Assembly (NCBI GenBank): GCA_018067045.1 | Contig: JAGPVL010000034.1 | Coordinates: forward strand, 1 to 64,000 | Length of the DNA stretch: 64,000 bases | Source of the DNA: Gammaproteobacteria bacterium | GTDB lineage: Bacteria > Pseudomonadota > Gammaproteobacteria > Pseudomonadales > Alcanivoracaceae | Reading direction: 5' to 3' | In this document: positions 57,527 to 61,045 of the stretch, in pieces | How positions within the stretch are numbered: position 1 is the stretch's first letter | Layout: each line of letters starts with the position of its first letter | The notes under the pieces: model-generated | Told to the model about the DNA's origin: nothing | What the model saw: only the letters and a program-made list of their open reading frames with translations | The model's database searches: none | Program-made: the position numbers and the translations under genes

Positions 57527-58699
57527 ATGAGCTTAAAACCAACTGACGTAGTAATCGTCGATGCTGTCCGTACGCCTATGGGCAAAACGAAAAACGGCAT
57601 GTTCCGCAATGTGCGCGCAGAAAAACTGTCTGCTAACTTGATTCAAGCACTGGCTGCTCGTAACCCAGGCTGGAAACTTGAAACCACAGAAGACGTTATC
57701 TGGGGTTGCGTAAACCAAACGCTAGAACAAGGCATGAACGTTGCGCGCAACATTGCCTTGCTGGCCGGCATGCCACGCACCACTGCGGCACAAACCGTTA
57801 ACCGTCTGTGTGGCTCTTCCATGCAAGCGCTGCACATGGCTGCCCAAGGCATCCAAACCGGCAACGGTGATGTGTTTGTTATCGGTGGTGTTGAGCACAT
57901 GGGCCACGTTGGCATGATGCACGGCATCGACCTGAACCCAGAATCGTCTAAGCACACTGCCAAAGCGTCCAACATGATGGGCCTGACCGCAGAAATGCTT
58001 GGCCGCATGCACGGCGTTAGCCGTGAGCAGCAAGACGAATTCGGCGTGCGTTCACACAAGTTAGCGTGGGAAGCGACACAACAAGGCCGCTGGAAAAATG
58101 AAATCGTGCCAATCGAAGGTCACGACGCCGACGGCAACAAAGTGCTGTGTGAAATCGACGAAGTGATTCGTCCACAAACCACACTGGAAAGCCTGCAAGG
58201 ATTGAAGCCAGTCTTCGACCCACGCAACGGCACCGTGACAGCGGGCACCTCGTCTGCATTGTCAGACGGCGCATCCGCCATCCTCGTGATGAGCGCTGCA
58301 AAAGCCGCTGAAATGGGCCTCAAGCCACGCGCTAAAATCCGCAGCATGGCCGTTGCAGGCTGTGACGCCGCCATCATGGGTTACGGCCCAGTACCGGCCA
58401 CACAGAAAGCACTGGCACGCGCTGGCCTAACCATGGCCGACATCGATTACATCGAGCTAAACGAAGCCTTTGCCGCACAGTCACTCGCTGTCGCCAAAGA
58501 CCTCAAATTGCTTGAGCGTATGGACACCGTAAACCTAAACGGCGGCGCTATCGCACTAGGCCACCCACTAGGCTGCTCCGGCGCCCGTATCACCGGCACC
58601 CTACTAAACGTCATGGAAGGCAACGACGGCCAAATCGGCCTCGCCACCATGTGTATTGGTTTGGGTCAGGGCATCGCGACGATTATCGAACGCGTTTAA
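57527..58699 (+). CDS. fadA: 3-ketoacyl-CoA thiolase
   Basis: Beta subunit of the fatty acid oxidation complex; thiolytic cleavage of 3-ketoacyl-CoA. The 390 residues carry the nucleophile Cys95 in '[16 protein letters not shown]', the '[11 protein letters not shown]' loop, and the '[11 protein letters not shown]' motif with the second catalytic Cys. The ATG at 57527 has AGGAGA seven bases upstream and is preferred over an extension to 57476. The last 85 codons are repeated, diverged, at 60675-60936. The protein itself is complete and should be functional. Confidence 0.97.
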
Positions 58700-58749
58700 C
58701 CCGCGCTGAAAACTTTCTTAGAAAGAACAGGGGGCAGCCTGCTGCCCCG

Positions 58750-58822
58750 AACGCTTTCTGCTCTAACCTCACAAGGGTAAGATCGGAAAAAACAGAGCCC
58801 GGCTACAAGCCGGGCTTTTTTA
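58750..58822 (+). repeat. 73-bp direct repeat, left copy (terminator segment)
   Basis: Base-for-base identical to 60973-61045. It spans AACGCTTTCTGCTCTAACC through the terminator to the last TTTTTTA. The hipBA module begins directly after this copy and ends before the second fadA end. Confidence 0.9.
58796..58821 (+). terminator. fadBA terminator (works for both strands)
   Basis: AGCCCGGCT and AGCCGGGCT, nine perfect pairs with loop ACA, followed by six T and preceded by six A, so it can also end hipA transcription from the other side. A second hairpin, GGGGCAGC-CT-GCTGCCCC, lies at 58731-58748. Confidence 0.9.
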
Positions 58823-58833
58823 TGGGTGGGATA

Positions 58834-60105
58834 TTATTGAATTCGAAAGTCTTCCGGCAATGATGCCCAATGTGCTTTTAGCGCTTTCTTATGTTGCGCA
58901 TTCATCGGTAAATCCTTGAGGGCACCCGGCCAGATATCCCGCGCCCTCTCCATTACCTCCTTCAGGTGCGGCTCTATCGCGCGCCATGGCACCCCCACTT
59001 TTTCAGACCAACGTTTAAAACTGTCGTAGTGCACCGAGCGCCAAGATTTTCCGCCGCCCAGATTCAAAGCAAAGCTCGACTCATTTTCTACATAGACACA
59101 GGTCGTCACGATGTCATAGGCTGGCGACAATCTCGGCGTCACCGCATCGGCGTAACTCAAACTCCAGTTCTTTAGGTGCGCATCACCATTGGCCAGCAAG
59201 ATATTCACCAATAGCCGTTTGGCAAATTCCTGCACATCCCCAAGACCGTCGCCAGAGTAGTCATAAATAACCTTGCCAATTTGCTCATAGTTGGCGGAAT
59301 CGTATTTTTCATGCGGATACTTCACCAGAATCTGAGCAAAGTCCTCCATGTGCACTCGGCGCGCACCATCACGGTCAAAACGCTTAATCGCATAAGCCTG
59401 GCTTTCGTCAGGCAATTTAATGCCCGGTAAATTATCGAGTTGGTCAACACCAACCAGCTTTATCTCGGGCACCACAACACCAGCCTGACTAGCCAACGTC
59501 ATCGCCGTAAACTCGTTCAACGGTAGATCTTTATGTATTGTAGAAGGCGTTTTGACGATCCAGTTTCCCAGCTCACCACGAGAACTCAGGTTGTACCTGC
59601 CGTCTTTCTCTTTCATCGAAAACTTCATCTGTACGCCAGCGAGCGAAAACCGCCTTGCCTCATCATCGGAAAAAATTTTCACCGGCCGCGCATCCCCCAG
59701 CGTCGCTAACAACGGACCCTCCACCTGATCAGGGTCAACCGGCTCAGCGATCAGCGCCCCGGGCAAATCGGCCCCTAGATGCGCGAAGATTGGAAATTCA
59801 TTGTCGCGGTGTACTTTTAATCCACGCGCAATCCATTCGCGCTGAGCGCCTTCGGGTAACAAATTCGACAACACCGGATGCAATTGCTGTTGCTTTGACC
59901 AAGACTGAGAAAGAAGCTTTTCCGCTCTCGGAAAATTCGGATGAGTAATCAAGCTAAACGTAGGACGCTGAATATCCTCCCGAAACGAGCGCTCAAATGT
60001 CAGAACATTTCGCCCATTCTGGAAACCGGCCAGATATCCAACCTCCAGCCCATGCAGCGTCAACTTCAACACGCTTACTTCCTGATGGTCAGAATCCCTG
60101 CTCAT
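58834..60105 (-). CDS. hipA: HipA-family serine/threonine kinase toxin
   Basis: Type II toxin that in E. coli phosphorylates GltX and causes persistence. The 423 residues have the N-terminal couple domain ('LTLHGLEVGYLAGFQNGRNV', 'HPVLSNLLPEGAQREWIARG'), the 'GVQMKFSMKE' glycine/Ser-loop region, and the kinase catalytic loop 'NGDAHLKNWSLSYAD' followed by the DFG-like 'LSPAYDIVTT'. It overlaps hipB by four bases. The stop lies 12 bp from the end of the left 73-bp repeat, so it converges on the fadA terminator. Cellular target cannot be told. Confidence 0.92.
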   Translation of the reverse strand: MSRDSDHQEVSVLKLTLHGLEVGYLAGFQNGRNVLTFERSFREDIQRPTFSLITHPNFPRAEKLLSQSWSKQQQLHPVLSNLLPEGAQREWIARGLKVHRDNEFPIFAHLGADLPGALIAEPVDPDQVEGPLLATLGDARPVKIFSDDEARRFSLAGVQMKFSMKEKDGRYNLSSRGELGNWIVKTPSTIHKDLPLNEFTAMTLASQAGVVVPEIKLVGVDQLDNLPGIKLPDESQAYAIKRFDRDGARRVHMEDFAQILVKYPHEKYDSANYEQIGKVIYDYSGDGLGDVQEFAKRLLVNILLANGDAHLKNWSLSYADAVTPRLSPAYDIVTTCVYVENESSFALNLGGGKSWRSVHYDSFKRWSEKVGVPWRAIEPHLKEVMERARDIWPGALKDLPMNAQHKKALKAHWASLPEDFRIQ

Positions 60106-60443
60106 TCAACGTCTCCTAGATCGTCCCCCCAAGGATTATCCGAAAGTGGCGCCTCCCGTACTCCAACATTTCTTTCATTGATAATCGAGAGCACTCCGCG
60201 CAGTACGCTTTCCGACTCCGACGACAACAACGCGTTTACCAGCGCCAACTTATCCTGCGGAACCAGCACCAACTCTCCCTTTACACCCTTCGCCAAAAGC
60301 TCCAGCGTATCGAGACGCGGATTGCCCTGCCGCTCCAGCCGCTGATACTGCTGACGCGACATACCCGTACGGTTCGCCATATCCTCCTGACGCAGCCCCA
60401 AGGCCTTGCGCCGATCTTTTAACTGCTCTAGGACCTTAGACAT
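60102..60443 (-). CDS. hipB: HipB-family antitoxin (XRE helix-turn-helix)
   Basis: DNA-binding antitoxin of HipA. The 113 residues begin with an XRE domain: 'ALGLRQEDMANRTGMSRQQY' and 'RLERQGNPRLDTLELLAKGV'. The longer-than-usual C-terminal tail (about 40 residues, acidic) is presumed to contact the toxin. AGGAG lies six bases before the ATG. It precedes and overlaps hipA. A likely autoregulatory site is upstream. Confidence 0.9.
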   Translation of the reverse strand: MSKVLEQLKDRRKALGLRQEDMANRTGMSRQQYQRLERQGNPRLDTLELLAKGVKGELVLVPQDKLALVNALLSSESESVLRGVLSIINERNVGVREAPLSDNPWGDDLGDVE

Positions 60444-60458
60444 AAAGCATCTCCTAAG

Positions 60459-60483
60459 TTGCTATAAAGGCAATAAGCAATAA
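60459..60483 (-). promoter_or_regulatory. Possible hipB operator/promoter region
   Basis: TTGC-TATAAAG-GCAA forms a short inverted repeat 16 bp in front of hipB, and a further GCAATAA repeats next to it. The position fits an autorepressor site, but it does not match the E. coli TATCC-N8-GGATA operator. The 231-bp gap to the fadA fragment also has a CAGGGCT/AGCCCTG hairpin at 60593-60624. Confidence 0.3.
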
Positions 60484-60674
60484 TTTAGCTGCTTAAGTGC
60501 AGGTTAGCAATATATGAAACTCTTTTAGAAGTAGGCGCTAGCGACAACACAATATGCATCATATATGACGCTTTATTGCTCTTGAGAGGAGGCAGGGCTA
60601 TGCAGCACACGATAGGAGCCCTGCATAACCGCTGAAATAGGTCTGGAGCCTACGCAGGGCTGACCATCTACGAG

Positions 60675-60936
60675 CATAGATTACCCTGAACCAAACGAAG
60701 ACTTCGCCTCACAGTCACTGCCCGTCGCCAAAGACCTCAAGCTGCTGGACAAGATGGAAGACAAGGTCAACCTAAACGGCGGCGCGATTGCACTCGGCCA
60801 CCCACTAGGCTGCTCCGGCGCCCGTATCACCGGCACCCTGCTAAACGTCATGGAATGGAAAGACGGCCAGATTGGCCTCGCCACCATGTGTATTGGTTTG
60901 GGTCAGGGTATCGCGACGGTTATCGAGCGCGTTTAA
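60675..60936 (+). pseudogene. Truncated, diverged second copy of the fadA 3' end
   Basis: Encodes the last 86 or so residues of a thiolase ('[20 protein letters not shown]', '[19 protein letters not shown]') in an open frame up to TAA at 60936, with no start or 5' part. Compared with fadA it has many synonymous changes and some replacements (LERMDT to LDKMEDK, EGND to EWKD). This is too diverged for a recent duplication, and points to a second allele brought in with, or displaced by, an inserted module. Confidence 0.9.
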
Positions 60937-60972
60937 TTTGCGCAAAAGATAAGGGGCAGCCATGCTGCCCCA

Positions 60973-61045
60973 AACGCTTTCTGCTCTAACCTCACAAGGG
61001 TAAGATCGGAAAAAACAGAGCCCGGCTACAAGCCGGGCTTTTTTA
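60973..61045 (+). repeat. 73-bp direct repeat, right copy (terminator segment)
   Basis: Identical to 58750-58822 and includes the terminator hairpin at 61019-61039 with its T-run. Its last three bases (TTA) are the stop codon, read on the minus strand, of the 61043-62011 gene. Another GGGGCAGC/GCTGCCCC hairpin precedes it at 60953-60971. Confidence 0.9.

Follow-up and report, generated by a model that had tools for sequence, protein, structure and literature searches.

The fadA locus of the source genome

The 64,000-nt window analysed here comprises positions 1-64000 of contig C36 of the source genome G000, a member of the Alcanivoracaceae, a family of bacteria that are marine for the most part. 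This study concerns the 3' end of its fadA gene, encoding a 3-ketoacyl-CoA thiolase, and the accessory modules behind it. The intact resident gene (57527-58699, plus strand) lies directly downstream of a fadB-type gene (55218-57365), and the open reading frame (ORF) containing it matches Pfam Thiolase_N (5e-78) and Thiolase_C (1e-48). It is followed on the same strand by a 73-bp trailer (58750-58822), consisting of a hairpin (58755-58789) and an intrinsic terminator with a stem at approximately 58796-58816. On the minus strand, converging on fadA, lie a gene for a hipA toxin-like kinase (58834-60105; Pfam HipA_C, 3.6e-50; Couple_hipA, 4.3e-14) and, upstream of it, one for a hipB-type helix-turn-helix antitoxin (60102-60443; Pfam HTH_3, 2.7e-11), that is, the HipA kinase domains and the antitoxin of a HipBA toxin-antitoxin (TA) module.

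Beyond hipBA, the last approximately 290 coding bases of fadA are repeated together with the trailer (60642-61045). Direct repeats link 58441-58524 to 60675-60758 (77% identity), 58523-58706 to 60760-60943 (90%) and 58722-58822 to 60945-61045 (92%), and the final 73 bp of the two trailers are identical. A fadA profile moves the start of the second copy slightly upstream, to 60642 (60642-60936, plus strand, nhmmer E = 1e-81), corresponding to approximately nt 882-1173 of the gene, and found no match in the region upstream of hipBA that includes the junction to this displaced fragment (60444-60641). The displaced end has an open frame from 60676 to a stop codon at 60934-60936, in which the conserved NEAFAAQ stretch is altered, and its trailer (60973-61045, plus strand) shows the same hairpin and a terminator stem at approximately 61019-61039. 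An earlier note on this DNA had described a fadA 3' end and trailer present twice, with diverged coding parts and an identical last 73 bp including the terminator; its coordinates and gene calls hold. A third copy beyond position 64000, which the note had proposed to look for, was not detected in G000: a trailer search of the genome returned two copies only (next match, E = 0.3), and a 43-nt match in the 16 kb downstream (E = 0.0095) does not support one. A 22-nt match between 58305 and 60629 was first taken as part of a longer displaced copy and was dropped, since unrelated repeats of equal length occur in the same list.

As the note had also stated, accessory genes start directly behind each copy and converge on the terminators. 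Behind the second trailer these are a CARF6-type gene of the older module (61043-62032, minus strand; PADLOC CARF6, 4e-81), whose stop codon at 61043-61045 overlaps the last part of the T-run in the terminator, and a gene for an ORC-CDC6-like ATPase (61998-64000, minus strand, continuing to 64010; Pfam ORC-CDC6-like, 2e-110). They are followed beyond the window by a PRTase-CE gene (Pfam PRTase-CE, 6e-50) and a DNA methylase gene (Pfam N6_N4_Mtase, 8e-15), up to 66319. This group of four genes (61043-66319) has a low GC content and looks like a predicted defence system; its CARF6 gene was found in 1 of the 46 family genomes searched, G000 alone (E up to 1e-10). Further downstream, a HipB-like gene (L009:16268-16609, equal to C36:71268-71609) is 64% identical to hipB at 60102-60443 and has no adjacent hipA match; it is perhaps the leftover of an older hipBA module. 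Synteny did not reveal the right end of the island: contiguous synteny with G040 and G039 stops at fadA, beyond which there are a few scattered matches (e.g., 66702-67186 and 105705-106757 to G040).

Recurrence, stacking order and cargo

In 46 genomes of the family, 38 loci with an intact fadA and 0.9-18 kb of downstream sequence were examined, six of which (L128, L145, L146, L155, L156, L158) have a short downstream stretch of 0.9-8.2 kb. The counts do not include the other eight genomes (G002, G012, G014, G025, G031, G037, G044, G045), in which fadA was cut, lay at the end of a contig or was poorly matched, or for which the downstream stretch was missing; L157, L159 and L160 gave no intact fadA. 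Displaced fadA 3' ends were found downstream in 9 of the 38 loci, where 14 partial profile matches represent 11 copies, one each in G000, G003, G010, G013, G026, G029 and G038 and two each in G004 and G030. All 11 lie on the fadA strand, with the earliest start at fadA nt 862. Two further loci, in G005 and G015, carry a second trailer without coding sequence, so that 11 genomes are affected. The resident fadA aligned across residues 1-390 in all 38 loci, indicating that the host gene end, the conserved end of the thiolase, is intact. The same profile found two intact fadA genes, one paralogous thiolase and no partial copy in 898,159 control bases, and a chance origin of the displaced copies is therefore unlikely.

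Arrangements behind fadA differ between relatives; one fixed arrangement in all of them would have spoken against the earlier note. As it had anticipated, there are less-occupied sites and, in other species, other cargo between like trailers: the pairs G013 and G006 as well as G010 and G008 contrast occupied with less-occupied sites, with an IrrE-type peptidase and a Zeta toxin as cargo. The order of insertion can be followed in genus g2. In G017, block C lies within approximately 220 bp of the fadA trailer (fadA-C), in G003 cargo B precedes block C (fadA-B-C), and in G004 fadA is followed by cargo A (a gene whose 1541-aa product has an amidase domain), a displaced end with trailer, B, a second displaced end, and C. 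The alignment of G003 with G004 gives 84% identity across 850 bp for B together with the trailer before it, and 91% across 2.65 kb for C. Read from these alignments, the series is one of last-in, first-position stacking, with the newest module at the conserved gene and older 3' ends behind it, as in sequential displacement. The idea that modules are stacked one behind the other thus finds support in G017, G003 and G004; the order is not shown for G000 itself, whose sole congener in the set, G040, shares no contiguous downstream sequence with it.

A wider set of 80 fadA loci was collected, of which 77 had sufficient downstream sequence (six of these being family members already counted), and was searched by plain blastn, which is less sensitive than the profile. 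One of the 77 was positive: in Acinetobacter colistiniresistens NIPH 2036 (L061:11165-13905), fadA and its terminator are followed by a convergent AAA_21 and DUF4276 pair and a 576-bp copy of the fadA 3' end with 96% identity.

The cargo is variable and of the TA and defence type, as at core defence hotspots. At least 11 of the 38 loci have a recognised TA toxin within 1.5 kb downstream, namely ParE in six (G005, G020, G021, G023, G028, G030), HipA in three (G000, G035, G041) and Zeta in two (G010, G019); this count comes from a scan of selected proteins, partial in the other 27 loci, and has no control for TA frequency elsewhere. Ten genomes, including G000, have a close relative of hipA, which in eight of them is located 0.1-15 kb behind fadA in convergent orientation and in G018 and G019 on a different contig or at a distance of 436 kb.

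Several dispersed repeats were also observed. One of approximately 80 bp ending in TGATGGGTGTCCTGTTGTT (e.g., L139:14262-14350) occurs frequently at the fadA hotspot in g2, often at module borders, and is also present elsewhere in g2 genomes. In the window, 26781-26907 and 27932-28058 are direct copies (92%) of an element of approximately 127 bp with inverted ends like GGGACACCCATTAATT / AATTGATGGGTGTCCC, flanking a segment of approximately 1 kb that includes an ORF of 203 aa. At its right end, this element, which we assume may be linked to REP-associated transposases, resembles the repeat abutting displaced fadA ends in g2. Beside fadB there are tandem repeats of approximately 118 bp (54627-54969), with a dispersed copy at 41060-41165.

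Ancestry of the copies and filling of the site

Between the resident and displaced ends there are 19.5 synonymous and 14.5 nonsynonymous changes in G000 (86 codons compared, dN/dS 0.20) and 5 synonymous and no nonsynonymous changes in G013 (44 codons), which neutral decay of a local duplicate would give with P of 1e-4 and 0.002, respectively. Since the divergence is mainly synonymous in both cases, the copies are, judged by these substitutions, of different ancestry: they originated in separate genomes and not by a duplication on the spot. The displaced copy of G013, taken with its untranslated region (UTR), aligns at 89% over 309 bp with the resident 3' end of G002, which is another species; of the UTR behind the resident gene of G013, 65 bp are identical to G014. 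The divergence between the fadA genes of G000 and G040, which belong to the same genus, rises from 8.3% to 25.3% at a change point at nt 944, a contrast reached in 0 of 2000 permutations, and their ratio of 3' to 5' divergence, 3.0, is the highest of 152 non-independent pairs (next 1.85, median 0.96). By this change point, fadA in the pair is a mosaic: the resident 3' segment at 58470-58699 (plus strand) has an ancestry unlike that of the gene remainder relative to G040, and the replaced end could be in G000 or in G040. In a tree holding 6 of the 11 displaced copies each groups with its own genus, and the donors would therefore be relatives.

The trailer separating these ends from the cargo folds as a hairpin followed by a terminator stem in both copies (fold z -3.85 and -4.65). 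A terminator scan found a minus-strand terminator in each trailer and the plus-strand one comes from the fold only, so that termination may work in both directions. Among 11 chosen trailers, 4 of 24 pairs are changed on both sides, a number reached in 3 of 500 shuffles, and 91.3% of the cells pair; pair 8-28 is unpaired in 9 of the 11 sequences. A search of the trailer against known RNA families gave two matches, both far under the gathering scores. Trailer-like matches away from fadA (77-79% over approximately 55 nt) occur in G003, G012, G016 and G017; those in G012 (L159:3074-3129) and G017 (C9:23245-23299) consist of a hairpin with a GCCTCACAAGGG core and a terminator at a non-fadA place, loosely related to the fadA trailer, and the transcript end is therefore not specific to fadA. 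In our reading, the trailer is a conserved end of the transcript, which shields fadA from the cargo converging on it. The 73-bp repeat was also considered as an attachment (att) core, which is not favoured by the paired changes, the fold and the relatives away from fadA; it is probably a conserved hairpin and terminator instead.

These properties bear on site-specific integration at the fadA 3' end or trailer by a recombinase since lost or acting in trans. Elements that integrate in protein-coding genes and restore them by carrying the gene end are known, and fadA is indeed intact. Moreover, the trailer contains an imperfect dyad that, with up to three mismatches, was found in 18 of 46 genomes at 21 places, all 21 at fadA or a few kb downstream, the reversed control giving none (the variant in G000 exceeds three mismatches), and four of the longest displaced copies start near nt 862-885. 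However, these four did not define a fixed left edge, a candidate that was dropped, as the remaining copies start later: the edges lie at nt 862, 882, 885, 885, 919, 922, 957, 984, 1016, 1041 and 1042, with two beyond the stop codon, some true edges being possibly hidden by decay. The left edges hence range from 311 nt before the stop to within the 3' UTR, and the displaced copies have 131-311 nt of coding sequence where present. No tyrosine recombinase (PF00589) was found within 100 kb on the fadA contig in the 11 affected genomes, a range that several contigs cut short, above all that of G010, which is 22 kb long, and that of G015, which ends 2.5 kb downstream, serine and other recombinases not having been searched genome-wide. 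The G000 island (58834-71609) holds 12 ORFs with 100 aa or more, and a scan of 11 of them, all but a 144-aa ORF at 66378, revealed no recombinase; as for an integron cassette array, with its IntI and attC sites, no tyrosine recombinase was seen near fadA, attC models not having been run. Since the dyad in addition shows covariation of the RNA type and has its looser relative in G012 and G017, we regard site-specific integration as unlikely. Of the integration or recombination footprint seen in the earlier note, recombination at a conserved fadA 3' end that leaves the host gene intact is supported, and dedicated integration with the 73 bp as its site is not.

We consider it probable that the fadA 3' end is a hotspot filled by homologous recombination, most simply by a single crossover of a circularised fragment with the fadA 3' end. 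Incoming DNA from a related bacterium would bear cargo together with a fadA 3' end and the trailer belonging to it; the ends of this DNA would, most simply, be trimmed and joined into a circle, and a RecA-type single crossover between this fragment and the resident fadA 3' end or trailer would give an intact, sometimes chimeric fadA, a terminator, the new cargo and a 5'-truncated second fadA 3' end set on the older cargo. Repeated insertion would stack modules with the newest adjoining fadA, and the hotspot would need no recombinase of its own. The choice of this gene end may reflect that an insertion bringing a 3' end keeps fadA intact and that the terminator shields it from convergent cargo. 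A study in E. coli reports a PCR product of partial lacZ duplication in 56 of 60 clones, 109-950 bp in the 14 that were sequenced, and explains these duplications by trimming and re-circularisation of the molecule followed by a single crossover (PMC3240628). A competence-domain gene, present in 45 of the 46 genomes, is weak support because E. coli has one as well.

Other routes to the same picture were weighed against this recombination. Local tandem duplication of the fadA 3' end, with cargo later inserted between the copies, would agree with the grouping of the six placed copies by genus, but the mainly synonymous divergence in G000 and G013 indicates that each copy evolved in a working gene and the displaced UTR of G013 is of another species' type; such an origin, contradicted in these two genomes though not for heavily decayed copies (e.g., G026, G029, G030), is very improbable. 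Transposon-assisted capture, in which insertion sequences (IS) or REP/MITE-like repeats bring cargo to fadA and break off gene fragments, could account for the repeat ending in TGATGGGTGTCCTGTTGTT that abuts the displaced copies of G005, G013 and G015 in a scan and, in degenerate form, those of G003 and G004 by eye, for its occurrence 27 times in fadA orientation and twice in the opposite one in the 38 loci (up to four mismatches), and for IS-like remnants seen by eye in G039, G020, G024 and G010. It leaves unexplained why only fadA 3' ends were captured and in one orientation only; moreover, a search with the longer repeat outside g2 gave one weak match (G044), and no such repeat was seen by eye at the displaced-copy edges of G000, G026, G029, G030 and G038; we hold such capture to be improbable. 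If everything downstream of fadA were simply exchanged by homologous recombination with a double crossover, and the repeats arose now and then as a by-product, this would fit the fadA mosaicism and the flank recombination published for hotspots (PMC5635113). However, simple replacement makes no displaced 3' ends, of which G004 has two, in order; we hold this exchange to be rather unlikely as the source of the arrays, and it may spread finished ones.

Several observations weigh against filling by single crossovers. Neither copy in G000 looks native, their distances to G040 in this segment being nearly the same (dS about 1.5). The trailers are identical over 73 bp despite a coding dS of 0.26-0.40, which calls for strong constraint, homogenisation or a crossover within the trailer; of these, the identity suggests one of the latter two. 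Several displaced copies are too decayed for dating. The second copy in G005 and G015 is trailer only and offers little homology for RecA, and in genus g2 the end of a dispersed repeat abuts three of seven displaced copies by scan and five of seven by eye, hinting at a second factor. A right border of the hotspot did not emerge: fadA is the left flank everywhere, and G000 has no contiguous right flank in common with G040 or with G039 in the stretch compared. Finally, the events in E. coli were rare, 5.8e-9 per recipient (PMC3240628).

A more tentative extension of recombination at fadA, which we consider possible yet doubtful, is that a module between direct copies of the fadA 3' end and terminator is a mobile cassette without a recombinase, excised and inserted by housekeeping recombination, for which the fadA of any relative would serve as the target. 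TA cargo would be favoured in such a cassette because a segment flanked by direct repeats is otherwise deleted, a loss that only addiction penalises.

Comparison with known systems

Elements such as e14 and phage 21 in icd are integrase islands at the 3' end of a protein-coding gene, which is kept intact by an element-borne end. The fadA locus shares with them the intact host gene and the displaced end beyond the insert and differs in that no tyrosine recombinase was found near it and no fixed edge exists. A closer likeness is the displacement of effector-immunity modules of the type VI secretion system (T6SS) in Vibrio cholerae, where a new module likewise arrives at the same gene and pushes the older 3' end back, yielding age-ordered arrays for which no integrase is known and for which homologous and homology-facilitated illegitimate recombination have been proposed (PMC5361080). 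There, however, the 3' part of the gene is a portion of the variable toxin and is exchanged, whereas fadA encodes a conserved metabolic enzyme whose end is re-used as homology, and the cargo consists of immunity genes instead of TA and defence-like genes (PMC5361080).

The core defence hotspots of Pseudomonas aeruginosa (PMC10250203) and hotspots free of mobile elements (PMC5635113) resemble fadA in having variable defence cargo next to a core gene that is conserved, no single type of mobile element and recombination at the flanking gene. Unlike in these hotspots, insertions at fadA leave ordered scars, and a conserved right core flank was not found. The lacZ duplications of E. coli share with fadA an insert between an intact and a truncated gene end and a varying duplicated length, 109-950 bp compared with 131-311 nt of coding sequence at fadA; they arose in laboratory conjugation with a designed plasmid and inactivated lacZ, whereas the events at fadA are natural, repeated and keep the gene intact (PMC3240628).

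No publication on a fadA hotspot or islands in Alcanivorax, or on truncated copies at insertion hotspots, was found in the literature searched, which omits most subscription journals. About half of the accessory-gene hotspots are without evidence of mobile elements according to one survey (PMC5635113), and how such element-free hotspots fill is an open question; the scars at fadA allow the order, donors and junctions of single events to be read. The locus also offers a concrete, testable reason for the gathering of TA genes at such sites. Sequential displacement and core hotspots are thus known from other systems, and what fadA adds is that the displacement arrays have a conserved metabolic gene as their anchor.

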